Positions 748 to 37,776 of a stretch of DNA of 37,929 nt are shown in pieces (position 1 is the first letter of the stretch; each line of letters opens with the position of its first letter). Location of the stretch: NCBI GenBank assembly GCA_946407745.1, contig CAMJPQ010000033.1, positions 1 to 37,929 on the forward strand, in the 5' to 3' direction. The position numbers and the translations under genes were made by a program. The notes below the pieces were generated by a model. That model saw nothing but the letters and a program-made list of their open reading frames with translations, was not told where the DNA came from and ran no database searches. The DNA comes from an uncultured Clostridia bacterium (GTDB taxonomy: Bacteria > Bacillota > Clostridia > Christensenellales > Aristaeellaceae).

Positions 748-766
748 CCCGGAAGGGGGAATACAG

Positions 767-10561: not shown

Positions 10562-10581
10562 AACAGCACTGACAACCTGAA

Positions 10582-10625
10582 AGGGGTGGCCTCAGCTTCC
10601 GGGGTCACCCCTCCCCAGTGAGGGG
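10582..10625 (+). terminator. Strong double hairpin between pilin and SipA-like genes
   Basis: AGGGGTGGCCTC (10582-10593) pairs with GGGGTCACCCCT (10601-10612) over 12 pairs including two wobbles, around a 7-nt loop. CCCC (10613-10616) and GGGG (10622-10625) form a second stem. There is no T-run, so this is more likely an mRNA stabiliser or partial terminator that lifts pilin mRNA above the assembly genes. The rest of the 10,562-10,715 gap is GC-rich with no gene. Confidence 0.5.
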
Positions 10626-10715
10626 ACACAGTCCACACAAGCGCGTGGGCTGAGCAGAGGGCGCGGCAGGCCGCGCCTCCTCCTCAACGCATGCGGCGCA
10701 GTGAAAGGAAAAACG

Positions 10716-11444: not shown

Positions 11445-11492
11445 GAGAGCAAGCGGATGATCCATTCTGAAGAGAGGAGGTCCTGATGGCGC

Positions 11493-22587: not shown

Positions 22588-25524
22588 TTACGCTTTTTTC
22601 ACAGCTTTTTTCCTGCTCAGGAACCACATCACGCCGCAGACGGCGGTGAGCACGGCGAACAGCGCGGTGGCGCAGTATTCGGTCATCTGCCACCAGGTGG
22701 TGATGGGCACCACGCGGGCGGTGGAGGAGATGCCGTTCATGGCGGAGGAATTCACCTGCACGTACAGGATGCGGTGGATGGCCTGGCGCAGCAGGTTGGC
22801 GATGTAGGGATCGTTCTGCTTGTCGCTGATGTCGGAGGCCCTGAAGCCGTCCCACAGGTCCGCACCGCCCTCCAGGCCCTGGGTCTGCACGGTGAAGTTG
22901 GAGTTGGAGGAATAGTCGGTGATCACGATGCCGTCAAAGCCCCATTCGCCGCGCAGCAGGTCGGTGAGCAGGCTGCGGCACGCGCCGCCCCACTCGGTGC
23001 CGATGCGGTTCATGATGGTCATGGCGCCCTTGGCGTGGCTCTCGGTCACGGCGGGGGCATAAGCGGCCAGGTACGCTTCGCGGATGGCCTGCTCGTTGGC
23101 CCACACCATCACACCGGCGCGGTGGGTTTCCTGGTCGTTCAGGGCGAAGTGCTTCATGAACACATACACGCCCTTGTCCTGGATGGCCTTGACCTCGGGG
23201 GCCATCATGGCGCCGGAGAGGAAGGCGTCCTCGGAGAAGTATTCATAGTTGCGGCCGCAGTAGGCATTGCGGTGGATGTTCGCCGCGGGGGCGTACACGC
23301 CGTTGGTGTGGGTCTTCAGGCCCTGGGTGCCGATGTTGCTGCCCAGCTCGGTCATGATGTCCCTGTTCCAGGTGGCGGCCATGATGACCTCGGCGGGGTA
23401 AGCGGTGCCGGATTTCTTGCCGCCGAAGAAGCTGTCCGTGATGCCCTGCGGGCCGTTGGTTTCCACGGTGGCGGGCTTGGAGATGGAGTTCGCGGCCTTG
23501 GTGTTATGGAAGGCGTTGATGACGATGTCCTCCTGCTCGGCAAAGCTCATCTGGTCCAGCAGCTTTTCCCAGGCAGGGTCGTCATAGGGGAGGCCCATCA
23601 TCATGGCCAGCGTCATGCCGTTGTTGGCGTTGTAGGTGGGCATCACATAGGGATTGCCGGCCTCATCCTCGGTCTTCGCCACATATTCGTTGGCAATGTC
23701 CTTCGCCATCTGCTCGGTCACGCGCACCACGGTGGTGGCGGTGGGATAGGTGCCTTCCCAGTCGCTGCGGCTGAGGTAGGTCACCTTGGTTTCGCTGGCG
23801 GCGTAGCGGTTCAGGTCCGCGCCGTCAAACAGGTTGCCGATGGCCTTGCCGGTGGCGGTGGACACAGAGTAGGTCTTGTTGTCCTGGCTGCCCTGGGTGT
23901 ACTTGAAGGTCAGCGCGGTGCTGCCCGCCTCGTCCATGCCGTTTTCCACGGTGTAGCCCTTGGCGGCCAGGATGTTGTTGACGGCGTTATGGGCGTCGGT
24001 GCCCACGGTGAGGTAATAGTCGCCCGCGTCCACGATGTAGGTGCCCGCGCCGTTGGCATCGTAGCTCTTCATCAGCTCCCTGGGCACATCGATGGTCACA
24101 ATTTCGCTCTGGCTGGGGTTCAGCTGCCTGGTCTTGGCAAAGCCCACCAGCTCCACGGCGGCCTTTTCGATGCCGTGCTGCTTATCGTAATCGGTGTAGG
24201 GCTTCTGCATGAAGACTTCCACCACATGCTTGCCGGGCACGGCGCCTGTGTTGGTCACAGCCACAGACACGGTGAAGCGGTCGCTGCTTTCGGTGACCTT
24301 GAAATCGCTGTAGGCAAAGTCGGTGTAGCTCTGGCCGTAGCCGAAGGTGCGGTACACCTGGGAGGCGTAGTCGTAGTCGCCGGGGTTGCCGGTGCCCATC
24401 ACCTTGTCCTCGTAGCGGGTTTCAAAGTACTTGTAGCCCACATAGATGCCTTCCTGGTAGACCACGTAGTTCACGTTGGTCTGCAGGTCGTCGTTGGTTT
24501 CGGTCAGGCCCATTTCCGCCGCGTTGGGGTAGGTGCAGTCGGCAAAGTTGACCAGGGAGGGGCTGTAGGCGTTGTCCGTCAGGTAGGTGTCCACCAGGCG
24601 GCCGGAGGGGTTGATGCTGCCGGTCAGAATGCCCGCCACGGCGTTGTTGCCGTAAGCGCCCACGCCGCCGATCCACAGCGCCGCGTCGATGCCGTAGGCG
24701 GGATCGTCCAGGAACGCGCAGTTGACGGCATTGGAGGGGTTGAGCAGCACCACGATTTTCTTGAAAGTGCCGCTGTCCTTCAGGGCCTTCAGCGCTGTCA
24801 GGGTATCCTTCTCATTGGTGGAAAGGGCCAGGTAGTCGCCGTTTGTGCCCTCGTCGGTGCAGCCGGTGATGGCCAGGTCCAGACCCTCGCCGCCGGAGCG
24901 GGCCAGCACGAAGATGGCCGCGTCGCCGTAGGCCGCGAAGGTGTCGGTCAGGCCCGCTTCTTTTTCAATCAGGTTCCACGGCACATCGTTGATGGAGTAG
25001 TCGCCCTTGGCGGCGCAGGAGCTCAGCGCGGGCACCTTGCGTTTGTAGGACGCGCCGTTGCCGGTGTTGTAGAAGGTCCACAGGGCGGTGTTGATTTCCG
25101 CGCCGGCGCTCTCCAGCGCCTTGCGCAGGTTGGGGGCGGTGGAGGTGTTCACAGAGCCGGAGCCCGTGCCACCGTAGATCATTTCCACACTGGAGTGGGA
25201 GAAGAGGCTGACCTTGGCGCCGTCGCCCAGGGGCAGGGCGGCGTTTTCATTCTTCAGCAGCACCGCGCCTTCGGCCTCGGTGCGCGCGCACAGGTCCTCT
25301 TCATAGTAGGAGAACCAGTCGTCGTAGCCCGCCCACTCATCGGGGAAGTAGTCGGTATCGCCGCCAACGCCGTCATCCACGATCTTGTAGGTGTCGGCCA
25401 GCAGGAAGGCGTTCACGGAGGTGAAGAAGTAATTGGTCACCACATCCGCCACGATGAGGAACACCAGGATGGCGGCAAAAACGATGGTCAGTGTTTTCCA
25501 CAGCTTTTTATGGTTCTTTTTCAT
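22588..25524 (-). CDS. Membrane-tethered, domain-swapped glycoside hydrolase family 3 enzyme
   Basis: ATG 25524 follows GAGGAGG and overlaps the upstream stop (ATGA). The product is 978 residues. Helices at about 11-34 and near the C-terminus (YCATALFAVLTAVCGVMWFL) would hold it to the membrane with the enzyme outside. The usual GH3 order is reversed: the C-domain comes first (GAVLLKNENAALPL...ARSGGEGLDLAI with probable acid/base Glu213). An Fn3-like part follows (FTVSVAVTNTGAVPGKHVVE), and the catalytic barrel comes last (KHFALNDQETHR; GFDGIVITDYSSN with nucleophile Asp870). This permuted order is known from rumen Clostridia such as Ruminococcus albus. It is probably a beta-glucosidase or beta-xylosidase-like exo-enzyme. 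Its promoter is the LytTR-type one upstream of the lipoprotein gene. Confidence 0.9.
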   Translation of the reverse strand: MKKNHKKLWKTLTIVFAAILVFLIVADVVTNYFFTSVNAFLLADTYKIVDDGVGGDTDYFPDEWAGYDDWFSYYEEDLCARTEAEGAVLLKNENAALPLGDGAKVSLFSHSSVEMIYGGTGSGSVNTSTAPNLRKALESAGAEINTALWTFYNTGNGASYKRKVPALSSCAAKGDYSINDVPWNLIEKEAGLTDTFAAYGDAAIFVLARSGGEGLDLAITGCTDEGTNGDYLALSTNEKDTLTALKALKDSGTFKKIVVLLNPSNAVNCAFLDDPAYGIDAALWIGGVGAYGNNAVAGILTGSINPSGRLVDTYLTDNAYSPSLVNFADCTYPNAAEMGLTETNDDLQTNVNYVVYQEGIYVGYKYFETRYEDKVMGTGNPGDYDYASQVYRTFGYGQSYTDFAYSDFKVTESSDRFTVSVAVTNTGAVPGKHVVEVFMQKPYTDYDKQHGIEKAAVELVGFAKTRQLNPSQSEIVTIDVPRELMKSYDANGAGTYIVDAGDYYLTVGTDAHNAVNNILAAKGYTVENGMDEAGSTALTFKYTQGSQDNKTYSVSTATGKAIGNLFDGADLNRYAASETKVTYLSRSDWEGTYPTATTVVRVTEQMAKDIANEYVAKTEDEAGNPYVMPTYNANNGMTLAMMMGLPYDDPAWEKLLDQMSFAEQEDIVINAFHNTKAANSISKPATVETNGPQGITDSFFGGKKSGTAYPAEVIMAATWNRDIMTELGSNIGTQGLKTHTNGVYAPAANIHRNAYCGRNYEYFSEDAFLSGAMMAPEVKAIQDKGVYVFMKHFALNDQETHRAGVMVWANEQAIREAYLAAYAPAVTESHAKGAMTIMNRIGTEWGGACRSLLTDLLRGEWGFDGIVITDYSSNSNFTVQTQGLEGGADLWDGFRASDISDKQNDPYIANLLRQAIHRILYVQVNSSAMNGISSTARVVPITTWWQMTEYCATALFAVLTAVCGVMWFLSRKKAVKKA

Positions 25525-27020
25525 TGCGCGGTGACCTCCTCAGTTGCAGCCTGGGCGCTGTCCTCACCATGGGTGTAGAACATGGGGGAGAGCGCATAGG
25601 TGTTTTCATCCACGGGGAAGGTGATCTGGCTGGTTTCGGGCTGGGTGTCGCTGATATCTGCGGTGATTTCGATGGCAGCGCCGCCCGCGGCCAGCTCAAT
25701 GTGCTCTTCGCCCACGCGCCACTGGCCCTGCTTGGTCACGTGGAACTGTCCCTCCTGGCCGAAGCTGGTCAGGTCGAAGTTCACGGTGAAGGTGTGGTTG
25801 TCGTAGAAGAACACAAACATGGTCTTGCTGTTCACGGAGGAGGCGGTGTAGATTTTCGCGGGCTCCTTCACAGCGGCTTTCAGCGCGGCGGGATCCACAG
25901 TGTAGGTGTTGTTGTAGCCGTCGGTGAAGGAGAAGGTGCCGTCGCCGTTGTCGGTGAGCACGTTTTCCTCGCCGCCGTTGTAGGTCAGCGTCAGCGCGCC
26001 GCTTTCGTCAAAGGCCCACAAGTATTTCTCATCCACGTTCACACCGTAGCTGGTGATGAACACGGCCATCACGCCGTTGTCGCAGAAGTTGGCCTTCATG
26101 GTGTCGCTGCCCTGGGCTTCGGCGGTGTAAATGGTCTCGCCGGGCAGGGTCACGATGTCGGGCGCCTTCTCTTCCGCGGGGGCTTCCTCCTTGGGCTCCT
26201 CCTCCGCTTCGCCGGTCAGGGACTTATCCCAATCCAGGTGCGCGGACACATAGCCCATGCCGGTCTCATCCACGGGAATGGGCGTGGCCTCGAAGGGCGG
26301 GGTGTAACCCGCCAGCGTCCAGTAGCCGGTGTTCATGCAGTACTTGGTGCGCTCGCCCGCATTGGTGTAATCGTAATAGAGCTCGAACTCGCCGTCGTTG
26401 TAGAACTCGGCGTAAATGGTGCCGGTGGCGTCGATGTAGTTGGAGCCGGCGTGGTACAGCACCCGCTGGACCTTGCCGTCGTCCGCCTTGATCGCGTTCT
26501 TCAGGTCTTCCTCATACACGGTGTATTTGCCGGCGCGCTGGGCGTAGCCGCCGTAAATGGAGGAGACATGCGTGAACTGATACACGCCGTTTTCGTATTC
26601 CAGTGTTTCCTTTTCGCCGTTGATGGTCAGCTCCAGGTCATAGGTGACCTCTACCTCGGCGGCGCTCCACTTGGCGCGCAGGCTCACGTTTTCCTTTACC
26701 TTGCGCGCGCCGGGCCAGGGAGAGCCGTCCTGCTGATACCAGCCATGCAGGTCGTTGCCCTCCAGGGCGGGGGTGTAGGAGGCAAAGTCGATGGCGGTGC
26801 CTTCTTTTACCTCCACGGTCTTCGCTTCGGTGCTGCCGTCGCTCCAGGCGCCGCCGGCGGGGTTCAGCGTCACGGTATAGGTGGCTTTGCTTTCATCGCT
26901 CTGCACTGCCTGATTTGTGGCAGCGCCGCTGTCCTTGCCCTGGCAGCCGGTCAGGCACAGCATCAGTACGGCCGCCAGCGCCAGGAGGGTCAGGACTAAC
27001 CAGGGTCTTCTCATTCGCAT
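25521..27020 (-). CDS. InlB-repeat lipoprotein, first gene of the GH3 operon
   Basis: The start ATG 27020 has GGAGGAG six bases upstream; ATG 27035 lies inside that site. The product is 499 residues. The leader MRMRRPWLVLTLLALAAVLM ends in the lipobox LTGC, so the protein is lipid-anchored outside. Residues about 50-125 are an InlB B-repeat-like domain (YTVTLNPAGGAWSDG...LHGWYQQDG...SLRAKW). An acidic Glu/Pro linker (EEEPKEEAPAEEKAP) separates two halves of similar beta-rich modules (YDGEFELYYDY- and DNHTFTVNFDLTS-like strands). No catalytic motif is seen. Its stop overlaps the GH3 start, so the two are translationally coupled. I infer a surface carbohydrate- or wall-binding partner for the GH3 enzyme. 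Confidence 0.75.
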   Translation of the reverse strand: MRMRRPWLVLTLLALAAVLMLCLTGCQGKDSGAATNQAVQSDESKATYTVTLNPAGGAWSDGSTEAKTVEVKEGTAIDFASYTPALEGNDLHGWYQQDGSPWPGARKVKENVSLRAKWSAAEVEVTYDLELTINGEKETLEYENGVYQFTHVSSIYGGYAQRAGKYTVYEEDLKNAIKADDGKVQRVLYHAGSNYIDATGTIYAEFYNDGEFELYYDYTNAGERTKYCMNTGYWTLAGYTPPFEATPIPVDETGMGYVSAHLDWDKSLTGEAEEEPKEEAPAEEKAPDIVTLPGETIYTAEAQGSDTMKANFCDNGVMAVFITSYGVNVDEKYLWAFDESGALTLTYNGGEENVLTDNGDGTFSFTDGYNNTYTVDPAALKAAVKEPAKIYTASSVNSKTMFVFFYDNHTFTVNFDLTSFGQEGQFHVTKQGQWRVGEEHIELAAGGAAIEITADISDTQPETSQITFPVDENTYALSPMFYTHGEDSAQAATEEVTAQ

Positions 27021-27050: not shown

Positions 27051-27117
27051 ATTATGCGGAAAAACCGCTTCCGGTTCAAGCGGCATCGCGTAAACTGCCC
27101 CTGATTCGGCGCAAACT
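27051..27117 (-). promoter_or_regulatory. LytTR-type promoter 1 (lipoprotein-GH3 operon)
   Basis: On the minus strand AGTTTGCG (27117-27110) and AGTTTACG (27096-27089) are direct repeats 21 bp apart. TTGAAC (27079-27074) is the -35, starting 17 nt after the second repeat starts. After a 17-bp spacer, CATAAT (27056-27051) is the -10. This leaves a 5' leader of about 25 nt. The repeats resemble the 9-bp LytTR half-site with 12-bp spacing. Confidence 0.8.
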
Positions 27118-27161
27118 AAAATCCGCCCGGAAAAGATTTCTGAGCGGCAAAAGGATGTTTG

Positions 27162-28163
27162 TCATGGAAGCAGCTGGGTCAGGGCTTCTTCAAATTTCGC
27201 CAGCCACCAATCCCGATACCCCGCTTTGGTGGGGTGGATGCTGTCGGCCATATACAGCGCCCGTTCTTCCTCCGTGATTTGGTTGAATTCCGCGTCATTG
27301 TATAAATCAATCACAGTCACGCCCCATTTTTCTTGGAGCCGGTACAGACCCGCGATCATGGTTTCATAATCGGGGTTATCCAAGAAACTGTTGGTATAGA
27401 ACACCACAGGACAGCCCCAGATTTCCTTCGCCAAAGCGGTAATGTATTCCATAGCGCCAAAGGTGGTGGCGGTGTTGAAGGCGTCCTTGTCCCTTACCTC
27501 CTCAGCCGTGATTTCGCCGAAAACCTCCGGGTGGTGCATATCATTGGTGGAAAGCTGGCAGATGAAAGCATCCGGTGTGACGGGGCACATATTCTTTTCA
27601 ATGAAGGTGTTCAGCCGGGTCACATAGCTCTTCTTTCCGTCCGCGCCCTTGAGCACCGCCAGCGTGGTGCCGCTGACGGCTTCCTTGTAGCACACCGCCC
27701 CGTCCCGGGCCATCAGGAAGTCCACCATGGATTCCTTTTCGGAGGACGCGCCGTAGGTGACGGAAGAACCCAGAAACACATAGGCGCGGCCCTTCAAGGG
27801 GCTGTCAGGGATCAAATCGGTGGACGCGACGGAATAGGGCTCCGAATTGCCCAGCTTGGTGTAGAAAATCACTTGATTCACGCTCTTTTCTCCATAAGAG
27901 ATCGTTACCATGCAGGAGCCGTTGGGGGTGATTTCACTGCAAGCGTATTCATAATCTACATCATGAAGCACGCTTTCATCCTCCAGTATGGCGTCAACAA
28001 TCATTCCGGCAGGGTCGAACGCCTCTCCCTCCAGATACCGGGTTTTCATAGGAGGCTGAACGATAGTAAGCTTTTTTACGGCTTCCTCCGCCGTGCAAAC
28101 GCAGCAAAGGCACAGCAGCAATACGGCGGCGGCCAGCACGGTGATTCTTAGTTTCCTCGTCAT
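27162..28163 (-). CDS. Secreted SGNH/GDSL-type hydrolase with N-terminal Ig-like domain
   Basis: ATG 28163 follows AAAGGAAA. The 333-residue product starts with a hydrophobic leader (VLAAAVLLLCLCCVCTAEE). Residues about 30-105 look like a bacterial Ig-like domain (KTRYLEGEAFDPAGMIVDA...). The catalytic domain has YVFLGSSVTYGASS (block I, nucleophile Ser), QLSTNDMHH (block III region) and DSIHPTKAGY (block V, Asp and His). SGNH enzymes are esterases or lipases; in glycan loci they often remove acetyl or other acyl groups, which is my inference here. The DNA is visibly less GC-rich than its neighbours (three sampled 60-nt lines at 48-57% against 72% in an adjacent GH3 line), which hints at a separate origin. 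No clear promoter was found upstream. Confidence 0.85.
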   Translation of the reverse strand: MTRKLRITVLAAAVLLLCLCCVCTAEEAVKKLTIVQPPMKTRYLEGEAFDPAGMIVDAILEDESVLHDVDYEYACSEITPNGSCMVTISYGEKSVNQVIFYTKLGNSEPYSVASTDLIPDSPLKGRAYVFLGSSVTYGASSEKESMVDFLMARDGAVCYKEAVSGTTLAVLKGADGKKSYVTRLNTFIEKNMCPVTPDAFICQLSTNDMHHPEVFGEITAEEVRDKDAFNTATTFGAMEYITALAKEIWGCPVVFYTNSFLDNPDYETMIAGLYRLQEKWGVTVIDLYNDAEFNQITEEERALYMADSIHPTKAGYRDWWLAKFEEALTQLLP

Positions 28164-28242
28164 AGGTTCAATTTCCTTTGGTTTACTCAGCTTTGAACGC
28201 GGATGAAATATAAGCTGTATTTTTAGGCGGCGTTACGAAACG

Positions 28243-28283
28243 AAAAGGGGAACCCGCTCTTGGTGCGCAAGGAGCGGGCCCCC
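28243..28283 (-). terminator. Intrinsic terminator after the GH106-GH3 pair
   Basis: On the minus strand GGGGGCCCGCTC and GAGCGGGTTCCCC pair around CTTGCGCACCAA (with a small bulge), followed by TTTTCGTTT. It lies just after the GH3 stop. Confidence 0.85.
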
Positions 28284-28298
28284 AAGGTTGATTTGTGC

Positions 28299-31200
28299 TT
28301 AAATCTTAAACGCTTTCACCAGCAGCGGCCAGGCCCAGAAGATGAAGATTAGCACGATGGCCACGAAGAGCACGGCCAGCACGATCCACAGGATGCGCTT
28401 GCCCTTCTTCGTCATGCGCTTGCGGTTCTGGAACTCCTCTTCCGTCATGCGGCACTTGGAGTACACCTTGAACATGCCCAGCAGCAGCAGCAGGCCAACG
28501 ATCGCGTCAAAGGCGAACAGGGCGATCTTGTAGATGGGGAAGCCGGACTTGACGGGCGCGGCCTTGGCCTTTTCGCCGCCCTCGATGCCGTTCATGGCCA
28601 GGGAGTTGGCGGTGTTATACAGGATGGAGTGCACGGCGTCGCGGATCAGCGCGCGGCACCAGCCGGACTTCACGTCGGAAAGGGTCTGCTCGGCGGTGGC
28701 GTGCACCAGGTTGCCGCCCGCGGCCAGGTACATATCGCTGCCCTTGCCCTTCATGGTGGTGGTGTAGTCGGTGATGTAGCAGCCGTTGAAGCCGTATTCA
28801 CCGCGGCAGATGGCGGTCATCAGCGGATAGCTGCCGAAGGTGTACTGCCAGCCCACGCGGCACATGGTGAGCATGATGCCCTGGGCGTTGCCCTTTTCGA
28901 TGGCGTACTGGAAGGGCTTGAGGTAGATTTCACGGGCCGCCTGCTCGGTGCCCCACACAGCCACGGCGCCGTTGGCGGCGCGGTTGGTGTCAGCGTCGTT
29001 CATCACAAAGTGCTTGATATAGGCATGCATGCCCTTGCTTTCGGTGCCCTTTGTCACATTGGCGGCGCACAGGCCGGTCAGCACGGCGTCCTCGGAATAG
29101 TACTCATAGTTGCGCGCGCCGAAGGGGGTGCGGTGGATGTTGATGCCGGGGGCGTACCAGCCGGAGGTGTTGGTGGCGATGGCGTCGTTGCCGATGGTCA
29201 GGCCATATTCGTGCTGCAGCTCCTGGTTCCAGGTGGCGGCGAGCATGGTGGCGCAGGGATAGTGATACAGGGTTTCGCCGGTGAGGAAGTTGGCGATGCC
29301 GTGGGGCGCGTCAAATTCCAGCGTCTTGGGCTTGCCGATGGAATCCACGGCGGTGGAGCCCCAGCCGGACTTGTTGAACAGCGCGTGCTCTTCGGAGAGC
29401 TTGAGCTCATTCAGCAGGTCGTCCCACTTGGGGTCGTCATAATCCAGCCCCATCATCTGCACCAGGGCGATGCCGTTTTCCGCGCCGTAGGTGTAGGCTT
29501 CCTTGCCGGGGTACTTCGTCTCATCGCTGAAGTCATTGGGGTTCAGGGCGGCTTCCGCGCCGGTCAGCTGCAGCTTGGCGAGCACGTCGGCGCTCACGAA
29601 CCAGGCGGGGGTGTCGCCGGAAACGTTGCCCACCTTGGAGGCGGCGGGGGCCACGGTGTTGGCGTAGCGCAGGCCGCCGTTTTCCATCACGGACCAGTCG
29701 GAGCGGGACAGGTAGGGCGCGTCCTCGGCGCGGATGATGCCGTCCAGCTGGTTGGTGATTTCGTTGCCGGTGACGGCGGTGTTCAGCAGCTTCTGCTCAG
29801 CATAGCTGATTTTCTTTGTCATGGCGGCGTTGCCGTCGGCGGTCATGCCATTGGAGGCGCCGAAGCCCTTGGCGGCCAGCACGTTGTTCACGGCGGCGTG
29901 GGCGTTCTGCGCGGCGGTGAAGTAGTAGTCGCCCGCGTCCAGCACGAAGGTCCTGGCGTTCACATCGTCATAGCTGGCGATGTCCATCTGGGAGAAGGTG
30001 GCGGTCAGCGTTTCGGATTCGCCGGGCTTGAGCTCCTTCGTCTTGGCGTACTGGGCCAGCGCCACGGCGGGCTTTTCCACACCGCCAGCGGTGTAGGGGC
30101 TCTGCACATAGAATTCAGCGACGTCCTTGCCCGCCCTGTCACCGGTGTTCTTCACGGTGACGGACACGGTGTACACGCCGTCCTTTTCCTCAGCCTTGAA
30201 GTCGCTCCACTCAAAGGTGGTGTAGGACAGGCCGTAGCCGAAGGGATACTGCACAGTGGCGGCATAGTCGTAATTCCCGGCGTTGCCCTGGTTCATCACC
30301 TTGTCTTCATACCGGGTTTCGTAGTACTTGTAGCCCACATACACGCCCTCGGCATAGTTCACGTAGGAATAGCCGGTCAGGGTGCCGTCGGCGTTCACAT
30401 AGCGGAAGTCGCCGAAGTTCTGCATAGCGGGGGAAGACAGGTTGTCGTACACATAGGTGTCGGGCAGGCGGCCGGAGGGGTTCACATTGCCCAGCAGGAT
30501 ATTGGCAATGGGCTCATAGGGGCAGCGGGCGAACCACAGCGCGCCGTCGATGCCGTAGGCCTCTTCGTCCACGAAATCCAGCTGCATGGCGTTGGCGGAG
30601 GCCGCCAGCACGATCACCTTGTCAAAGGACGCGGCGACCTCGCTCAGCAGGTCCTTTTCGTCCTGGTTCAGCTCCAGGTAGTGCTCGTCGGCGCTGCCGC
30701 CGTACCGGCTCATGTCGTAGGGCAGGTCGTTGCCCTCGGCGCCGGTGCGCGAGAACACCACGATGGCCGCGTCGTTGTAGTCCTTGTAGCTGGCCTTCAC
30801 TTCGTCGGTGTATTCGCTCTGGGGCGCCTCGTCGATCACCCAGCCGCCGGTCTCGCTGCCGTTGCCGGCGGCCAGGCCCTTCACGCCGCTCTCATGGGTG
30901 GACTTGGCATAGAAGTCGGCCAGAACAGGGTTCACGGTGAAGCCCTTGCCCTCCAGCACTTCCTTCAGGCCGTTGGTTTTGTTGTCAATGCCGAACAGGC
31001 TCACCTTGCCCGCCACAAGGGGCAGCGCGCCGTCATTCTTCAGCAGCACCGCGCCCTCGCCGGTGATGCGGGCGGAGATGTCGGCAGAGTGGGCCAGGCG
31101 CTCCTCGGCGGACTTGAAGTCGCTGGGGAAGTAGATGCTGTCGCTCTCCTGGCCTTCGGCGCTCTTCTGGCCGCCGACCTCGCCGAAATACAGCGTCAGG

Positions 31201-31319
31201 GCGGAATCCCACTTCAGGGCCTCATAGTTGGCAATGCCCATCGCGCCAAGAACCAGCGCGAAGATCAGTGACCAGAGAATCAGGTAGGTGCTTTTTTTCA
31301 TGCCTTTTTTGGTGGACAT
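28299..31319 (-). CDS. Second membrane-tethered, domain-swapped glycoside hydrolase family 3 enzyme
   Basis: ATG 31319 follows GAGAGGAGA; ATG 31301 is a weaker choice. The 1006-residue product is a paralogue of the other GH3 enzyme with the same reversed order. An N-terminal helix (about 12-31) is followed by the C-domain (FSRTGAEGNDLP, acid/base Glu195), an Fn3-like part (YTVSVTVKNTGDRAGKDVAE) and the catalytic barrel (KHFVMNDADTNR; GFNGCYITDYTT, nucleophile Asp851). The C-terminus differs: two helices (KIALFAFDAIVGLLLLLGMF and ILWIVLAVLFVAIVLIFIF) separated by a basic loop. It starts 21 nt after the GH106 stop, so the two are co-transcribed. A role in trimming sugars from a glycan at the cell surface is likely; the sugar is unknown. 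Confidence 0.9.
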   Translation of the reverse strand: MSTKKGMKKSTYLILWSLIFALVLGAMGIANYEALKWDSALTLYFGEVGGQKSAEGQESDSIYFPSDFKSAEERLAHSADISARITGEGAVLLKNDGALPLVAGKVSLFGIDNKTNGLKEVLEGKGFTVNPVLADFYAKSTHESGVKGLAAGNGSETGGWVIDEAPQSEYTDEVKASYKDYNDAAIVVFSRTGAEGNDLPYDMSRYGGSADEHYLELNQDEKDLLSEVAASFDKVIVLAASANAMQLDFVDEEAYGIDGALWFARCPYEPIANILLGNVNPSGRLPDTYVYDNLSSPAMQNFGDFRYVNADGTLTGYSYVNYAEGVYVGYKYYETRYEDKVMNQGNAGNYDYAATVQYPFGYGLSYTTFEWSDFKAEEKDGVYTVSVTVKNTGDRAGKDVAEFYVQSPYTAGGVEKPAVALAQYAKTKELKPGESETLTATFSQMDIASYDDVNARTFVLDAGDYYFTAAQNAHAAVNNVLAAKGFGASNGMTADGNAAMTKKISYAEQKLLNTAVTGNEITNQLDGIIRAEDAPYLSRSDWSVMENGGLRYANTVAPAASKVGNVSGDTPAWFVSADVLAKLQLTGAEAALNPNDFSDETKYPGKEAYTYGAENGIALVQMMGLDYDDPKWDDLLNELKLSEEHALFNKSGWGSTAVDSIGKPKTLEFDAPHGIANFLTGETLYHYPCATMLAATWNQELQHEYGLTIGNDAIATNTSGWYAPGINIHRTPFGARNYEYYSEDAVLTGLCAANVTKGTESKGMHAYIKHFVMNDADTNRAANGAVAVWGTEQAAREIYLKPFQYAIEKGNAQGIMLTMCRVGWQYTFGSYPLMTAICRGEYGFNGCYITDYTTTMKGKGSDMYLAAGGNLVHATAEQTLSDVKSGWCRALIRDAVHSILYNTANSLAMNGIEGGEKAKAAPVKSGFPIYKIALFAFDAIVGLLLLLGMFKVYSKCRMTEEEFQNRKRMTKKGKRILWIVLAVLFVAIVLIFIFWAWPLLVKAFKI

Positions 31320-31340
31320 GTGCGGTTCTCCTCTCTCTTT

Positions 31341-34300
31341 TTACTCTATTGTCAGCTCGACATAGGGAACCAGCAGGGCCTGCTGCGGGCCGTAGCTGTG
31401 CTTTTCGGTGTGGTAGCCGTACCAGCCGCGGGGCACGCCGTCGCCCAGCGCGTTGCTCACATTGGAAGCATAGCGCAGCTCGATGGTGTTTTCGCCCTCC
31501 TGAAGCAGCGGCCCGATGTCCAGAACGGGCTTTGTCATGCTCACATCGTCAGCCTTTCGGCCGTTCACGTATACGGTCATGCTCTCCGTGAGAGAGCCGA
31601 AGTCGATACAGGCACCGTCCGCCTCGCCGCTCCAGGTGAAGGTGGCGGTATAAACGGCCTGGCCTACGGCCTCGGGGCCGACCTCGGGCAGCCTGTCCCA
31701 GCCGGTCAGGGTTTCCAGGGTCAGCGATACGGGCGTGATGAGTGTATCCACCGCCGTTTCGGTCACGGTTTTGCCGTTCAGGGTTTCCGTGCGGCTGGAG
31801 CGGGTGTCGGCAGCCGACCAGAGGCTGAAATCCGCCTGCCAGCCGGTGATGTCGGCTTTGCCGGGCAAGGTGGCTGACAGGGTGACCTCCCGTCCGTCGC
31901 TGAGCAGCGCGGTATGCTCGCCGGGGTCAGTGAAGCGGAAGGTCAGCTTTTCATCTGCCCGCACCCTGTCCGCGTCGCTGCGAACCGCGTGGAGCGCTTC
32001 GTCCTCCCCGCACTTTTGCAGGGCATACAGGGCAATGCTGTTGTAATTCAGGGAAACGGGGAAGACGGTTTTGCCATCCTCATGGCGGTACAGGCCCAGA
32101 GCATGGACTCTGCCGCTCCAGGGGTCGATCTCATAGGGAACGAACAGGCCGTCGGCGCTGATTTCCGTGGTGATCTCATCGCCGTGGCTGTCCTGCGTGT
32201 CGCCGCCGCTCCACGCGCTCATGTAGGAGCCGTCGCAGTAATTGTACACATACAGGTACCGGGCGCTTTCATCCTCCCGCGCCTGGGTGAGCAGCTGCCG
32301 GTTGGGCTCGGTAAAGCCAGCGTAGGGCGCGATGCCAAGCTCCTGCAGAGCGGGCAGCACGGCAGACGCGTCGGCGGCGCAGACCACGCCGGGCAGGGCC
32401 TTCAGCTTCTCCATGGTCTCGGCCAGGGCTTCGTCCCTGTCGTCGTGGAAGGGTGTGCGCTGTGCCGCGCCGTCCACCACGATGACGGGCAGACCCTGCT
32501 CCGCCAGGGAAAGCACTGCTTCCGCGTCCTCCGCGGCCAGGCTCTCCTGCCAGAGCACCAGGGCCTTGTAGCCCGCCTGCTCCAGCGTTTTGGTTTCGGG
32601 CCGGAAGGAAACGCCGTCCGCGGTCAGGAAAGCGGGGCTCAGGTAATCCCAGGTGTAACCGGCGTCCTGCAGCGCGGTGGAGGGGAACAGCACGGGTTCA
32701 TGGTTCAGCATCCAGTTGACGCCGCCCTGGTTGCCGTTGGTGGGCATGCCCTGGTCCCAGTTCTGGTAGAGCATGCCCACGTCGGTGCGGGACACGCCCT
32801 TCTGCAGCAGCTTCTGCACACGGCCCAGGTGGTCGTTGAAAACGGGATAGTCCCGGGCAGAGGGCTCGGACTGGCCGAAGGTATAGAAGCTGTTGAACAC
32901 CGCGCCGGGCACCCGGTAGCCGGGCCACTCCGTTTCCTCGCCGGGGCCGTACTTCGCACTCCACACGTGCCAGATGATGCGGCTGAAGCCCGCTGCGTAC
33001 AGGGTGTAGGCTTCCATCAGGTGATCCTGATAGGTGTAGCGGTGCCCGCCCACCGCGCCGGTCTCGGAGGACAGCACCTTGTTCTGCAGCTTGGCGCCGC
33101 CCGTCCAGAGGCGGTAAATGTCAATCTGGTTATTCTGGTTCAGGTTTTCCGCCTCGGGGTAATCTACGGCGGCAATGGGCTCAGAGATTTCCAGGTGCTG
33201 GCCGTAGCTGATCTGGGCGCGGGTTTCGATGCCCGCCTCGTGGAGCCAGGCCCGCAGCGGCGTCAGCATCCGCTCCATGTAGAGCTGGGTCTGCACGTCG
33301 AACAGGTCGTTCTGGATGCGGGTGCGTTCCTCCGCGCCGCTGTCAATATCGTAGGCGCCGAAGCCCGCGTGGTCATAGAACCACATTTCCGGCAGGTCGA
33401 TGAACAGATACAGGTAGGGGCGGATGTCGTAGCCCTTCCTGTTTATGAACTCCCGTTCCATGTCCTGCGCCCAGAAGGTGAAGCCGGTGCCGGGGTTGAT
33501 TTCCAGGCTGTCCATGAACACCTGCACGTCGCCGGCCTTGATTTTCTCATTCAGGGCTTCATCGTTCAGTATGTGCTCTTCCCAGTAGGCGCGCAGGGCA
33601 TTCACGCCTGCCTCGTCAAAATAGTTGATGCAGTAGGCGGGCTGTGCGGCGGGAGAGGAAAGCTGCTGCGCGCCCTGCTGCCAGTAGTAGAAAATGCGCC
33701 AGGCGCTGTCCGCATCGGGCGGGGTGAAGCTCAGGGTGCGCGTGCCGTCCGCTTCAGTGACGATCCGGTCAGTCAGGTCGATATATTCCGGGTCGAACAG
33801 CACCGGCACGGCCTTCTTTCCGCTGGTCTGCCGGTAAGCGTAGGCGCCGAGGAACCGGGCGTTTTCCTGCACCGGTATCACCTTCACGCCCTGCTTCTTT
33901 TCCATGGGTACCTTGCCGTCCTTGACCTTGCCGGCCTTGAGGTATTCGTCGATCTCGAATACCACCTGGCTGGCCGCCTGGCTCTGGGGGTCCAGGCCGG
34001 GGATGTTGGCTGTGGCCCAATTGGTGCCGGAGGTCAGGGACACGGTCATGCCCAGGTCCAGCGCCTTGTCCAGCACCAGCTTCAAATCGTGGTCCCACTG
34101 GTCGCTGCCGTAGCCATAGTCCGCGTCGGACACGGAGGTGTCCACCTGCTCGCACAGCTCCATGCCCCGGAAGCCCGCGTCATAGATGGCCTGCACTTCC
34201 TCCAGCAGGGTTTCATCGGTGTGGGCGCCCTCGGCCATCCACCAGCGCACCTCTGTGCCATAGGGCAGGCCGGGTTTGACAAACTCCGCCTCCAGCGCGG

Positions 34301-34397
34301 CGGCAAAGCCGTCCTGCGCCAGCGCGGAATGGGGAACGAGGCTGAATGCCAGCAGGCAGGAAAGCAGCAGGCAAATCAATTGCTTCGGTGATTTCAT
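31341..34397 (-). CDS. Secreted GH106-type alpha-L-rhamnosidase-like glycoside hydrolase
   Basis: ATG 34397 follows GGAGGGAG. The 1018-residue product has a signal peptide (MKSPKQLICLLLSCLLAFSL...ALAQ). The first domain opens with GLPYGTEVRWWMAEG and DAGFRGMELCEQVD, a pattern I associate with GH106 alpha-L-rhamnosidases. INYFDEAGVNALRAYWEEHI, VFMDSLEINPGTGFTFW and ETGAVGGHRYTYQDHLMEA follow. The C-terminal part (YTATFTWSGEADGACIDFG...VYVNGRKADDV...ENTIELRYA) is a GH2-like sugar-binding domain typical of this family. It is the first enzyme after the small secreted protein and is preceded by a terminator at its ribosome binding site. The GH106 call comes from recalled motifs; a related unassigned family is possible. 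There is no wall anchor. Confidence 0.8.
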   Translation of the reverse strand: MKSPKQLICLLLSCLLAFSLVPHSALAQDGFAAALEAEFVKPGLPYGTEVRWWMAEGAHTDETLLEEVQAIYDAGFRGMELCEQVDTSVSDADYGYGSDQWDHDLKLVLDKALDLGMTVSLTSGTNWATANIPGLDPQSQAASQVVFEIDEYLKAGKVKDGKVPMEKKQGVKVIPVQENARFLGAYAYRQTSGKKAVPVLFDPEYIDLTDRIVTEADGTRTLSFTPPDADSAWRIFYYWQQGAQQLSSPAAQPAYCINYFDEAGVNALRAYWEEHILNDEALNEKIKAGDVQVFMDSLEINPGTGFTFWAQDMEREFINRKGYDIRPYLYLFIDLPEMWFYDHAGFGAYDIDSGAEERTRIQNDLFDVQTQLYMERMLTPLRAWLHEAGIETRAQISYGQHLEISEPIAAVDYPEAENLNQNNQIDIYRLWTGGAKLQNKVLSSETGAVGGHRYTYQDHLMEAYTLYAAGFSRIIWHVWSAKYGPGEETEWPGYRVPGAVFNSFYTFGQSEPSARDYPVFNDHLGRVQKLLQKGVSRTDVGMLYQNWDQGMPTNGNQGGVNWMLNHEPVLFPSTALQDAGYTWDYLSPAFLTADGVSFRPETKTLEQAGYKALVLWQESLAAEDAEAVLSLAEQGLPVIVVDGAAQRTPFHDDRDEALAETMEKLKALPGVVCAADASAVLPALQELGIAPYAGFTEPNRQLLTQAREDESARYLYVYNYCDGSYMSAWSGGDTQDSHGDEITTEISADGLFVPYEIDPWSGRVHALGLYRHEDGKTVFPVSLNYNSIALYALQKCGEDEALHAVRSDADRVRADEKLTFRFTDPGEHTALLSDGREVTLSATLPGKADITGWQADFSLWSAADTRSSRTETLNGKTVTETAVDTLITPVSLTLETLTGWDRLPEVGPEAVGQAVYTATFTWSGEADGACIDFGSLTESMTVYVNGRKADDVSMTKPVLDIGPLLQEGENTIELRYASNVSNALGDGVPRGWYGYHTEKHSYGPQQALLVPYVELTIE

Positions 34398-34413
34398 CCG
34401 TATCTCCCTCCAG

Positions 34414-34451
34414 GAAAAAACGCGGAGAGGGCCATGCGTCCTCTCCGCGTT
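34414..34451 (-). terminator. Intrinsic terminator/attenuator before the GH106 gene
   Basis: On the minus strand AACGCGGAGAGG and CCTCTCCGCGTT (12 bp, perfect, 9-nt loop) are followed by TTTTTTCC. It ends only a few bases before the GH106 ribosome binding site, so transcription of GH106 and GH3 must read through it or start inside the upstream gene. Confidence 0.9.
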
Positions 34452-34478
34452 CCATGCCCTCTGATCGGTCGAATGGAA

Positions 34479-35096
34479 TCAGTCGTCGTCAGAGTTTACG
34501 ATCACGTAGTCGAAGCTGTCGCCGTTCAGGGTGACGGTGACGGTGCATTCCTCGGCGTCGAAGCCGGCCTCGGAGGTCACCAGGCTGTCCACCATGAACA
34601 TGCCGGGGAAGATGTCAAAGGGCACGTGGCCTTCTTCTTCCTTGCACTTCACGTTGTCGCCGGTGATTTCGTCGTCAGCGAAATTGGCCTCGCCCTCGCT
34701 GTTCAGGAAGTAGCCCATGCTGGCCAGGTTGCCCCAGTTCTCGGAGAACTTCGCGTTGGTGGGGAAAGCGAGCACCACGGTGTCGCCGTCCTGGGTGAAG
34801 GTGCCGGTGAAGGTGTAGGTGATGAGCATCACGGGCTCTTCCGCGGTGGCTTCCTTCACGGTGCCGTCTTCATTTTCCTGGTGCAGTTCCTTCACATACA
34901 CATAGGTGCCGTCGTCATTCAGGGTCAGGGTGTTCACTTCCACGCCGCCCAGCGCGGTCACAAAGCCGTTGTGGAAGGTGTTCTGGGTGATCTCTTCCAG
35001 GGAGAAACGCTTGGTGTACACGCTCTCGGCAGTCGCGGACGCCACCAGGGAAGCGCACAGGGCCAGGGCCAGGATCAGGGCAAGCAGCTTTTTCAT
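34479..35096 (-). CDS. Small secreted beta-rich protein, first gene of the LytTR-controlled operon
   Basis: ATG 35096 follows AAGGAGG; the frame is open to 35429 but crosses the promoter. The product is 205 residues. The signal peptide is MKKLLALILALALCASLVASATAE, without a lipobox. The mature part is acidic and strand-rich, with repeated T-x-T or D-G-x patterns (NTLTLNDDGTYVYVKEL, TYTFTGTFTQDGDTVVLAF) like lipocalin-type or copy-number-amplified surface proteins; I do not recognise a family. It ends VIVNSDDD. It has the strongest of the three LytTR-type promoters and a terminator right after it, so it should be expressed more than the downstream enzymes. A substrate-binding or signalling role is only a guess. 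Confidence 0.75.
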   Translation of the reverse strand: MKKLLALILALALCASLVASATAESVYTKRFSLEEITQNTFHNGFVTALGGVEVNTLTLNDDGTYVYVKELHQENEDGTVKEATAEEPVMLITYTFTGTFTQDGDTVVLAFPTNAKFSENWGNLASMGYFLNSEGEANFADDEITGDNVKCKEEEGHVPFDIFPGMFMVDSLVTSEAGFDAEECTVTVTLNGDSFDYVIVNSDDD

Positions 35097-35150
35097 GTTT
35101 GTTTCCTCCTTAAAGATGTTGGAACGGGGCTCTATCCGTCCGTCGCGCAC

Positions 35151-35217
35151 ATCATATTTCATTTTTATCAGGCTTTCAACGCATATCGCGTAACCTGCGA
35201 GAATTCCGGCGCAAACT
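35151..35217 (-). promoter_or_regulatory. LytTR-type promoter 2 (small secreted protein)
   Basis: On the minus strand AGTTTGCG (35217-35210) and AGGTTACG (35196-35189) are 21 bp apart. The -35 TTGAAA (35179-35174) starts 17 nt after the second repeat starts. After a 17-bp spacer, TATGAT (35156-35151) is the -10. The flanks GGCGGATTTT and GCCG are shared with promoter 1. It is divergent from the kinase promoter. Confidence 0.85.
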
Positions 35218-35227
35218 AAAATCCGCC

Positions 35228-35256
35228 TTGACGGAGGCATAGCGGCGTGACATAAT
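35228..35256 (+). promoter_or_regulatory. Histidine kinase promoter
   Basis: TTGACG (35228-35233), a 17-bp spacer and an extended -10, TGACATAAT (CATAAT 35251-35256). It sits about 10 bp from the LytTR site of the divergent gene, so one bound site could affect both. The leader to the start codon is about 165 nt and contains the stem GCAGCTT/AAGCTGC (35337-35354). Confidence 0.75.
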
Positions 35257-35380
35257 GAAGAAGATGAGCGAAAGGCGCCAGGGCTTCGGGCGTTCCGGAA
35301 ACATGAATACAGACGTGCATTCACCTTGTGCGCCCGGCAGCTTCCGAAAGCTGCTGCCCGATATGGGGCTTTTGCCGTGA
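35255..35380 (+). CDS. Possible 41-codon leader ORF before the kinase gene
   Basis: An ATG at 35255 (or in-frame 35264 or 35303) reads to TGA at 35378-35380. It has no good ribosome binding site, and the first ATG overlaps the -10 box. It has a single Cys in SPCAPGSF. It could be chance; a signalling-peptide role is not supported by any processing gene here. Confidence 0.15.
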   Translation: MKKMSERRQGFGRSGNMNTDVHSPCAPGSFRKLLPDMGLLP

Positions 35381-35427
35381 AAGCCGCACCTGCCCTCCAG
35401 CACCGCAATGAAAGGGACGAACGCCCC

Positions 35428-36810
35428 ATGGCTGAATGGTTTTACACGATCGCTGGGCCATACGCTTACCAGTTTACCATACTGGCGGCAAACGAGCTGC
35501 AGTTCATGGTGGCAGCCCTGTTTTTCTGCCTGGACCTGCACAGAAAGCCCCGCTTCTGGCTGCGGCTGGCGGCCGGCCTGCTGCTTGAGCTGGGGCTTTT
35601 GTGGCTGGGTGTTGTGGTACGCACGGAATGGAACGGGCTGGTACCGCGCGTTGTGGTGACGCTGCTGCAGTACTCATCCACCCTGCCGCTGCTGTTTTTA
35701 TGCATGGATGAATCGAGGGACGTGCTGCTCAAGGCCTGGTGCTCCTCCGTCGCGGTGAAGGAAATCGGCGGCACGGTGTATCCCCTGCTGCAATTCATTC
35801 TGGGTTATGACAGCCACGCCACCCTCCAGATCCTGCCTTTCCCGGACCTGCCGACGGACCTGACCTGGGTGATTTATTACACCGTTCATTTCCTGATTTA
35901 TTACCTGATATGGCGGGCCACCCGGCGGTATTTCAGGGAATCCTTCGATTCTGCCGCGCGAAAGAACGGCGTGGTGCTCTCCATCTTTTCCCTGCTGATA
36001 CTGGGCATACTGGGCGCGGTCACCAGCCATTACCGGGATGAGAGCCCGGTGCTGTACATCTGCACCCGTATATTCGCCATGGCGGTGGCGGCGTTTATCC
36101 TGATGACCTACGCGGGCATCGAGCTGCGCAGCCGCTCACGGGCGGATATGGCCATGATGGAGCATATACTGTCGGAGGAGCGCAAGCAGTTTGTTCAAAT
36201 CAAGGAAAATATCGACATCATCAACATGCGGTGCCATGACCTGAAGCACCAGCTGGACGATTTTTCGGGCAGGCTGACCGACCGGGAAATTGCCGAGCTG
36301 AGCGGGGCCATGGAGATCTATGACAGCAACATCCGCACAGGCTGCGACGCGCTGGATGTGGTGCTGTATGTCCACCAGCTCACCTGCCAGAAGGAAGGCA
36401 TCATCCTCACCTGCCTGGCGGACGGCACCGCGCTTTCCTTCATGCGCACCCGGCATGTTTACGCCCTGTTCAATAACGCGATCAGCAACGCGCTGGAGGC
36501 GGTGCGCAAGGTGCGGGATCCGGAGAAGCGGGTCATTGGCGTGACGGTAGAGCGGCAGGAGGGCCGGGCGGAAATCGAGATCACGAATTATTATGAGGGA
36601 ACGGTGCAGATGAACGGCGCCTTTCCCCAGACCAGCAAGGCGGACGCCTCCCACCACGGCTTTGGCACCATGAGCATGCGCTATATTGCCGAGCAGTATC
36701 AGGGCACACTGGCGGTGGAGGCGCGCAGGGGAATCTACACCCTGCATATCTCCCTGCCCGTTCCGAAGGACGGGCCGCGCAGGCAGGCTGAGTCTGCGCC
36801 GGAAAAATGA
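35428..36810 (+). CDS. AgrC-like GHKL sensor histidine kinase
   Basis: ATG 35428 (MAEWFYTIAGPYAY) follows AAAGGGACGA; the frame is open from 35326 but upstream codons lack a ribosome site. The 460-residue product has about seven membrane helices in the first 240 residues and no large outside domain. A coiled region follows (EERKQFVQIKENIDIINM), then the phospho-acceptor motif MRCHDLKHQL with probable His270, and a GHKL ATPase with N-box NNAISNALEA (349-358) and G-box HHGFGTM (Gly411, Gly413). This is the layout of peptide-sensing kinases of the AgrC/VirS type, but no AgrB/AgrD pair is in the window. The response regulator gene starts 83 nt downstream, with an additional promoter that begins inside this gene's last codons. 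Ligand unknown. Confidence 0.9.
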   Translation: MAEWFYTIAGPYAYQFTILAANELQFMVAALFFCLDLHRKPRFWLRLAAGLLLELGLLWLGVVVRTEWNGLVPRVVVTLLQYSSTLPLLFLCMDESRDVLLKAWCSSVAVKEIGGTVYPLLQFILGYDSHATLQILPFPDLPTDLTWVIYYTVHFLIYYLIWRATRRYFRESFDSAARKNGVVLSIFSLLILGILGAVTSHYRDESPVLYICTRIFAMAVAAFILMTYAGIELRSRSRADMAMMEHILSEERKQFVQIKENIDIINMRCHDLKHQLDDFSGRLTDREIAELSGAMEIYDSNIRTGCDALDVVLYVHQLTCQKEGIILTCLADGTALSFMRTRHVYALFNNAISNALEAVRKVRDPEKRVIGVTVERQEGRAEIEITNYYEGTVQMNGAFPQTSKADASHHGFGTMSMRYIAEQYQGTLAVEARRGIYTLHISLPVPKDGPRRQAESAPEK

Positions 36811-36857
36811 CAGTTTACGCGAAAACCCTTGGCAGCCTTCTACATATTTGATAGGGT
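36791..36857 (+). promoter_or_regulatory. LytTR-type promoter 3 (response regulator), overlapping the kinase 3' end
   Basis: AGTCTGCG (36791-36798) and AGTTTACG (36812-36819) are direct repeats 21 bp apart. TTGGCA (36829-36834) starts 17 nt after the second repeat starts; after a 17-bp spacer comes TAGGGT (36852-36857), a weak -10. The first half-site is inside the kinase coding sequence. The shared geometry with promoters 1 and 2 supports autoregulation. Confidence 0.75.
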
Positions 36858-36893: not shown

Positions 36894-37619
36894 ATGCCTG
36901 TCCGCGTGGCTATTGTAGAAGACGAGCTGCAGGCCATCCAGACTCTGGAACAGTATCTGGCGCGTTTTTCCAGGGAAAATGGCACCCAGTTCTCCGTACG
37001 GACCTTTGACAACCCCATTCTGCTGCTGGAGAACTATACGGCTGATTACGATCTGATCTATATGGATATCCAGATGCCGGCCATGAACGGCATGGAAGCC
37101 GCCCGCCGCCTGCGCACACTGGATGAAAAGGTGTTGCTGGTGTTCGTTACCAGCCTGACCCAGTACGCCATCGCGGGATACAGCGTATCCGCCCTGGATT
37201 ATATCGTGAAGCCTGTGAATTATTACGACTTCGCCCTGAAGCTGACCCGGGCGCTGAAACGGGTGGACAGCGTGAAAACGAATGTGGTCAGCATCTCCAC
37301 ACAAACAGGGGTGACCCGGGTGGACCTGGATGACATTACCTATGTGGAGGTGCGCAATCACCAGCTGACCTACCATACCGTGGAGGGGGAATACAGCCAG
37401 TACGGCTCCATGGCCGCCCTGGCCAAGGAGCTTTCCGGAAAGGGCTTTGCCCAGTGCAACAACTGCTATCTGGTGAATTTGCAGCATGTGCGGGGCGTGA
37501 GCGGCTATACCGCCGCCCTGTCCGACGGCAGCGAGCTGAAAATCAGCCAGCCCCGGAAGAAGGGCTTTATGGAGGTTTTCCAGGCCTATCTGGCCGGGAG
37601 GGAAAAAGAGGGACAATAA
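36894..37619 (+). CDS. LytTR-family response regulator (REC-LytTR)
   Basis: ATG 36894 follows AAAGAGGGTGG; the TTG at 36873 is a weaker alternative. The 241-residue product has a receiver domain with acidic pair Glu9-Asp10, phospho-acceptor Asp58 in IYMDIQMPAMNG, Thr86 and Lys106 in ALDYIVKPV. From about 137 it has a LytTR DNA-binding domain (DDITYVEVRNHQLTYHT...FAQCNNCYLVNLQHVRGV...LKISQPRKKGFMEVF). LytTR regulators bind pairs of roughly 9-bp direct repeats separated by 12 bp, upstream of -35. That matches the three repeat-pair promoters in this window, including the one in front of this gene, so it is the likely activator of both itself and the glycosidase operons. It ends with an intrinsic terminator. 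Confidence 0.93.
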   Translation: MPVRVAIVEDELQAIQTLEQYLARFSRENGTQFSVRTFDNPILLLENYTADYDLIYMDIQMPAMNGMEAARRLRTLDEKVLLVFVTSLTQYAIAGYSVSALDYIVKPVNYYDFALKLTRALKRVDSVKTNVVSISTQTGVTRVDLDDITYVEVRNHQLTYHTVEGEYSQYGSMAALAKELSGKGFAQCNNCYLVNLQHVRGVSGYTAALSDGSELKISQPRKKGFMEVFQAYLAGREKEGQ

Positions 37620-37626: not shown

Positions 37627-37653
37627 GCACCGCGCAATCGGCGGTGCCTTTTT
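37627..37653 (+). terminator. Intrinsic terminator of the kinase-regulator operon
   Basis: GCACCGC (37627-37633) pairs with GCGGTGC (37641-37647), followed by CTTTTT. It starts 8 bases after the stop codon. Confidence 0.9.
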
Positions 37654-37776
37654 GCGCTGCGCGCGGCTTTTCCCCTGCGGGGGGCTTGCGCTGCGCGCGG
37701 CTTTTTCCCCTACGGGGCTATAGCGCTGCGCGCGGCTTTCTCCCTGCGGGGGCTTGCGCTGCGCGCGGCTTTTTTA
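37654..37776 (+). repeat. Tandem hairpin repeat after the terminator
   Basis: Three and a half copies of a 33-35 bp unit begin GCGCTGCGCGCGGCTTT and contain CCCC-TGC-GGGG-like stems. They start at 37654, 37688, 37723 and 37756; the last ends in TTTTTT. Spacing and bases drift (TGCGGGG, TACGGGG, TGCGGGGG). Confidence 0.85.

Follow-up and report, generated by a model that had tools for sequence, protein, structure and literature searches.

Three operator-promoters of LytTR type ahead of two glycosidase operons and a response-regulator gene in an uncultured Clostridia bacterium

Does the LytTR two-component system encoded on a 37,929-nucleotide stretch of DNA from an uncultured Clostridia bacterium (Aristaeellaceae; contig CAMJPQ010000033.1, here C33, of assembly GCA_946407745.1) control the glycosidase genes that lie beside it? 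The whole stretch, called the window below, belongs to a 3.77-Mb assembly of 194 contigs that is 96% complete. An earlier note on its sequence had pointed to three promoters of one LytTR-like architecture and had proposed a regulon for surface glycan breakdown. Here we present an analysis of these sites, of their occurrence in the genome and of their conservation in relatives. The sites are real and well conserved, and the mechanism that they suggest is a canonical LytTR one. With a probability of roughly 85%, as judged from sequence, the sensor histidine kinase and the LytTR response regulator form a two-component system that activates an operon for a small secreted protein (SSP) and three enzymes (SSP-GH106-GH3a-GDSL), an operon for a lipoprotein-like protein (LPP) and a glycosidase (LPP-GH3b), and the regulator gene itself. 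The three operators and their promoters are as follows.

27086..27117, minus strand: operator A, AGTTTGCGCCG-N10-AGTTTACGCGA with a 21-bp period, 5' of lipoprotein-GH3b
27051..27079, minus strand: promoter A, -35 TTGAAC (27074-27079), 17-bp spacer, -10 CATAAT (27051-27056)
35186..35217, minus strand: operator B, AGTTTGCGCCG-N10-AGGTTACGCGA, 5' of SSP-GH106-GH3a-GDSL
35151..35179, minus strand: promoter B, -35 TTGAAA (35174-35179), 17-bp spacer, -10 TATGAT (35151-35156)
36791..36822, plus strand: operator C, AGTCTGCGCCG-N10-AGTTTACGCGA, 5' of the response-regulator gene
36829..36857, plus strand: promoter C, -35 TTGGCA (36829-36834), 17-bp spacer, -10 TAGGGT (36852-36857)

All three sites were found where the earlier note had placed them, and their letters were rechecked. 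Operator and promoter together span 27051-27117 (minus), 35151-35217 (minus) and 36791-36857 (plus). The operators share the word AGTYTGCGCCG-N10-AGKTTACGCGA, in which GCGCCG and ACGCGA, the motifs reported as kept, are indeed invariant across the sites. The geometry described before is likewise the same at each of them: the repeats have a period of 21 bp (start to start), the -35 hexamer begins exactly 17 nt past the start of the second repeat, and 17 bp separate the -35 from the -10. The -10 of promoter C is weak (3/6 consensus bases). The first part of operator C lies within the 3' end of the kinase open reading frame (ORF; stop codon at 36808-36810). In four relative loci (L063, L067, L070 and L072), as in the window, operator C either overlaps the end of the kinase gene or directly adjoins it, so that the 3' end of this gene incorporates the response-regulator promoter.

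That this geometry would hardly arise three times by chance, as had been claimed, is borne out by a scan of the assembly and by a matrix built from relatives. The genome-wide scan, which the earlier note had proposed, yielded at up to 3 mismatches exactly 3 pattern matches in the whole assembly, all of them window sites with 0 mismatches each; the reversed control pattern yielded 0 matches. With a looser 16-base pattern (up to 3 mismatches), 0.70 matches are expected per shuffled window, and 3 of 100 window shuffles held at least 3; the real sites match it with 0 mismatches, but the pattern was derived from those sites. The relatives-only matrix, which is an independent test, was made from 21 of the 22 relative sites (L071 was dropped) and from no window site, and spans both repeats and promoter. 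(Note that the relatives include a close one, G134, so that the 21 sites are not all independent.) It scored the window sites at 61.8, 58.1 and 56.1; no other place in the window exceeded -4.5, and the best places in three shuffled windows reached -11.4, -5.1 and -8.5.

The genes of the module are listed below.

36894..37619, plus strand: response regulator, 241 aa, receiver domain (PF00072, 58.8 bits) and LytTR DNA-binding domain (PF04397, 62.7 bits), both over the cut-off
35428..36810, plus strand: sensor histidine kinase, GHKL ATPase domain (PF14501, 68.5 bits), CHDLKHQ motif, hydrophobic N-terminal half (hydropathy)
34479..35096, minus strand: SSP, 205 aa, N-terminal hydrophobic signal-like segment, no family found
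31341..34397, minus strand: GH106-like enzyme (alpha-L-rhamnosidase family; PF17132, E=4.5e-14), signal-like N-terminus
28299..31319, minus strand: GH3a, permuted domain order GH3_C, Fn3-like, GH3_N, hydrophobic segments at both ends
27162..28163, minus strand: GDSL-type esterase/acylhydrolase (PF13472), signal-like N-terminus
25521..27020, minus strand: LPP, lipoprotein-like, LTGC near the N-terminus, first gene of operon A
22588..25524, minus strand: GH3b, permuted, hydrophobic segments at both ends, as in GH3a
20081..22459, minus strand: GH2 enzyme (PF02836, PF02837)

The window encodes a single LytTR regulator, as stated before, and the whole genome has eight LytTR matches. The kinase combines a GHKL ATPase domain and a hydrophobic N-terminal half with an adjoining LytTR regulator, an AgrC/VirS-like make-up. 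As to the target genes, the lipoprotein-GH3 operon named in the earlier note stands, but the promoter of the small secreted protein had been credited with too little: it also heads the GH106 gene, a second GH3 gene (GH3a) and the GDSL gene, and the note had thus missed a second glycosidase operon. Both GH3 proteins match PF00933, PF01915 and PF14310 over the cut-off, in permuted order, and both carry KHF and TDY motifs, which are presumably catalytic. Since the solved chains 5wug and 5k6l align with the first half of GH3b through their own first parts, the permuted order is not new. The GH106-like enzyme reaches 52.3 bits with PF17132 (cut-off 29), the best stretch covering only positions 213-335 of the 743 of the profile; its match to NF049897 is under the cut-off of that family, as is the NCBIfam GalB match of the GH2 enzyme. 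The latter, encoded on the same strand after a gap of 128 bp, may be the product of the distal gene of operon A. LPP has no Pfam or NCBIfam match over cut-off; a model of it (mean pLDDT 57.9) gave only structural matches with TM-scores near 0.1, which were judged meaningless. The predicted structure of SSP has a mean pLDDT of 49. From their sequences, the products of the module look secreted or membrane-anchored. Directly 3' of the regulator gene (37652-37774), the window has a 35-bp GC-rich tandem repeat of 3.6 copies.

A search for the regulator in 308 genomes of the family, with at most 9 candidates scored per genome, yielded orthologs of 74-92% identity in eight other genomes (genus codes g1, g31 and g48) and a fragment of 84% identity in G263. 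Among the relative loci fetched, seven hold SSP, GH106 and GH3a together, five in the order SSP-GH106-GH3a (L063, L067, L068, L075, L076) and two in the order SSP-GH3a-GH106 (L070, L072). The LPP-GH3b pair occurs elsewhere or just beyond in L065, L066, L070 and L073, and adjoins a diverged regulator in L077.

For each gene above a minimum protein identity, window included, the best pattern match within 250 bp 5' of the start was determined. Sites with 0-7 mismatches lead SSP in 10/10 loci (114-123 bp from the start), LPP in 6/6 (97-135 bp) and the regulator gene in 8/9 (98-117 bp). The regions upstream of GH106, GH3a, GH3b and GDSL gave best matches of only 8-11 mismatches; an operator 5' of the kinase gene was rejected on the same grounds (8-11 mismatches in 10 loci, 10 in the window). 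Of the 22 relative promoters, 19 have their TTG at exactly +17, and 16 have a -10 of 4/6 or more consensus bases at exactly 17 bp. Paired repeats about 21 bp apart and just 5' of the -35 were found at the three window sites and in 21/22 relative upstream regions. One further arrangement was observed: in G154 an extra site (4 mismatches; L067 19600-19631) leads an operon (L289 297-3896) in which the gene for a different small secreted protein, of 178 aa, comes first and another membrane GH3 next.

A dedicated LytTR regulon, as the earlier note had suggested, is well supported by this comparison, because the sites appear in the genome only at this locus (up to 3 mismatches), the same three operons carry them in relatives, the geometry is that of LytTR systems and a LytTR regulator gene adjoins. 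In the mechanism that we propose, the kinase (35428-36810) and the regulator (36894-37619) would form a dedicated two-component system. The phosphorylated regulator would bind the two direct repeats, which are two helical turns apart and end 8 bp before the -35, and would help RNA polymerase at the promoters of SSP-GH106-GH3a-GDSL, of LPP-GH3b and of its own gene. At its own gene it would thereby set up a positive feedback loop that leaves out the kinase, the gene of which would be expressed independently. Direct activation by the adjoining regulator is assumed because the arrangement resembles that of HdrR/BrsR and because VirR has paired repeats near the -35. We infer binding, activation, feedback and operon extents from the sequence. 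Since the products look secreted or membrane-anchored, the system would most likely switch on the external trimming of a rhamnose-containing glycan or glycoside; the signal may be, as a guess, a ligand tied to the substrate or product of the enzymes and sensed by the membrane part of the kinase.

Several observations weigh against this proposal. The genome scan was limited to 3 mismatches and likely sites in relatives reach 7, so that the genome may have further, weaker targets elsewhere. In a set of 300 genomes, again at up to 3 mismatches, the pattern matched 18 and the reversed control 28 (hand count); matches at 3 mismatches alone therefore mean little. Regarding the 24 pattern places listed from these genomes, 15 have 3 mismatches and 9 have 0-2, the latter all in module-bearing genomes. 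One match with 3 mismatches (G138 C40, L069) was not taken as a promoter, as it has no TTG at +17. For one regulator ortholog (L071, G048), the best match has 9 mismatches and cannot be recognised as a site, and 4/22 relative sites, with 7 mismatches, are identified more by their position and promoter than by the word. The regulator promoters of L066 and L072 have no TTG at +17 and the -10 of promoter C is weak, which makes autoregulation less sure. Because the genome has seven other LytTR matches, it is proximity and co-conservation that single out the adjoining regulator as the cognate one. Finally, the window offers the degrading enzymes and the regulator of a polysaccharide locus, but no transporter was recognised among the window genes tested (a subset), so a nutritional role is not proven.

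Regarding other explanations of the same data, the locus might encode an Agr/VirSR-type circuit that senses a peptide or cell density, with SSP or another peptide as the signal and the glycosidases as mere output. This is unlikely, though the kinase would suit it, with its GHKL domain, its hydrophobic N-terminal half and no sugar-binding domain revealed by Pfam or NCBIfam. VirS has been proposed as the receptor of an Agr-like peptide (PMC7492741), and autoactivation of LytTR-system regulators is on record (PMC6193735). SSP, however, aligns along its length with seven relatives at 70-87% identity, unlike a short and variable pheromone. It is improbable that the operators are bound by another of the LytTR regulators of the genome (eight LytTR matches) and that the adjoining pair is itself a target of such cross-regulation. 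The LPP-GH3b operon of G168 does adjoin a diverged regulator (58% identity), with sites at 5 and 6 mismatches; on the other hand, the sites accompany orthologs of the window regulator, and a paralogous locus of the same genome has a related but different word, neither word being present at the other locus at up to 3 mismatches. Repression of the three promoters by the regulator is quite improbable: binding beside the -35 could hinder the polymerase, but no evidence for repression was found, and the operator ends 5' of the -35 at the spacing of LytTR activation (PMC6193735, PMC2838878). That the repeats arose by chance, or are copies of one promoter cassette with no regulatory role, is scarcely credible, for although the pattern was derived from the three sites themselves, the relatives-only matrix separates them clearly and speaks against chance or copied promoters, the 21-bp period, the TTG position and the target genes are retained across three genus codes, and the genome holds no further copies at up to 3 mismatches.

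Activation by the adjoining pair is thus the preferred reading, and the question arises how far it extends to related regulators. For the contig scan of the wider family, 80 of 269 confirmed relatives were kept, including Listeria, Bifidobacterium and Coriobacteriales-type records; a GH3 gene lies in the fetched flank of 60 of the 80 and, when only loci of 15 kb or more are counted, of 39 out of 44. The control set comprised 80 of 134 LytTR matches from 50 genomes, taken by E-value with an ORF of at least 225 aa and leaving out the window and two orthologs. GH3 was nearby in 20/23 regulators that reach at least 140 bits to the window regulator and in 2/57 others (Fisher p = 1e-13), the 140-bit cut having been picked after a gap between 130 and 148 bits had been seen. 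The three GH3-less loci among the former are on contigs of only 6.5-11.9 kb. Overlaps exist between some loci (L241/L243, L218/L230), and the window's own genome contributes five. In OmpR-type loci, GH3 was present in 2/40 (the 38 best and two further among the matches listed). GH3 genes were called by iterated BLAST; 26 of the 114 called proteins have no KHx motif, 14 of these having at least 700 aa. On a quick tree of 155 regulators, which carries long-branch warnings, the GH3 label needs 16 changes as against 51.4 when shuffled.

Repeats were also searched de novo in non-orthologous loci (10/11 identical bases, distances 14-33). Ahead of GH3 genes, 3/77 were at 20 bp and 8/77 at 21 bp, and ahead of regulator genes 5/90 and 6/90, with at most 2 at each other distance; ahead of kinase genes there was no excess (1/94 and 2/94). 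A second run (9/11 with promoter filter) gave only 2/172 at 20 bp, 4/172 at 21 bp and 1 at 25 bp. This excess at 20/21 bp is suggestive only. A second word was found at a diverged paralogous locus, in the stretches given here.

4106-9820 of L222: paralogous kinase/LytTR locus with TTACGATGT-type promoters
736-4882 of L221: paralogous kinase/LytTR locus with TTACGATGT-type promoters

On contig C115 of the window's genome, the paralogous pair has a regulator 37% identical to that of the window and three places with repeats like TTACGATGT-N12-TTACGATGT (2-3 mismatches); three more of this type are on C27 of G009 (0-2 mismatches). They lead regulator-kinase genes, genes for small secreted proteins and esterase-like genes (PF00756, one over the cut-off and two just under). 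A GH3 gene lies downstream in G009, and none was found on C115, a short contig. The TTACGATGT word and that of the window both contain TTACG and are thus related, and in 6/6 TTACGATGT-type places TTG is 14 nt past the second TTACG-type core, as in the window. It weighs against this type that the search for it gave 1 further match in G000 and 4 in G009, and the reversed control nearly as many (1 and 3).

As a tentative extension, for which the odds are somewhat adverse, the window may be one case of a widespread family in which every kinase/LytTR pair serves a membrane-anchored, permuted GH3 and small secreted proteins of its own and has its own word, with the 21-bp period and the -35 distance unchanged. 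Gram-positive bacteria would then have an equivalent of the dedicated glycan regulators known from Bacteroides, and the signal itself may be shaped by the GH3 and the secreted protein. If each membrane GH3 has its own LytTR pair and word, targets could be assigned for many rumen and gut systems that as yet have none assigned, and a remark made on Butyrivibrio in 2010 (PMC2914790) would become testable. For the locus itself, the definition of the operator word, the promoter position and the target operons is sufficient for direct tests by binding and reporter assays, which bear on how an uncultured lineage of gut Clostridia may control glycan-trimming enzymes.

The remainder of the window includes three large surface-protein genes (734-15422), which encode a 2699-aa SpaA/List_Bact repeat protein, a DUF7601 protein and a protein with ten Cna_B stretches and a sortase domain. 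At the contig edge (1-204) there is a 63-bp tandem repeat of 3.2 copies.

In the literature on LytTR regulators with glycoside hydrolases, GH3, polysaccharide loci or the rumen, of which coverage was partial, no description of such operators or of such a regulon was found. In Bacteroides polysaccharide utilization loci, hybrid two-component systems and ECF sigma factors prevail (PMC5320581). The Gram-positive locus gpPUL Ros-7 of Roseburia intestinalis XB6B4 (arabinoxylan; GH25, GH43, GH51 and transporters) resembles the window in pairing a LytTR regulator with a kinase; the available text describes no GH3, GH106 or operators for it (PMC5320581). In Cellulosilyticum, a cellulase-linked LytTR gene rose on filter paper and xylan (PMC5733062). 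VirR of Clostridium perfringens uses paired direct repeats just 5' of the -35, where helical phasing matters, and its regulon comprises toxin and other genes on chromosome and plasmid (PMC2838878), whereas the sites found here are local and lead glycosidase operons; the arrangement alone was compared, not the VirR-box word. The closest geometry is that of HdrR/BrsR of Streptococcus mutans, LytTR regulators with the same 9-bp repeats, 12-bp gap and 8 bp to the -35 as the window, among LytTR systems of that species whose repeats lie 4-11 bp from the -35 (PMC6193735). Positive autoregulation is reported there and proposed here. HdrR and BrsR have membrane inhibitor proteins as partners and govern genes for bacteriocins and competence, whereas the window has a receiver domain, a histidine kinase and glycosidase targets; with that domain and the neighbouring kinase, its regulator does not belong to the inhibitor-paired LytTR Regulatory System class. 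The proximity of LytTR regulators to GH3 genes is already known from Butyrivibrio proteoclasticus, in which PULs 7, 21 and 33 each have a LytTR regulator near a secreted GH3 with a C-terminal membrane helix (PMC2914790), a combination also seen here. That paper, as far as its text was available, remarks on gene proximity alone, without operators, promoters or conservation across species; what is new in the present locus is the defined operators, their conservation and their targets.

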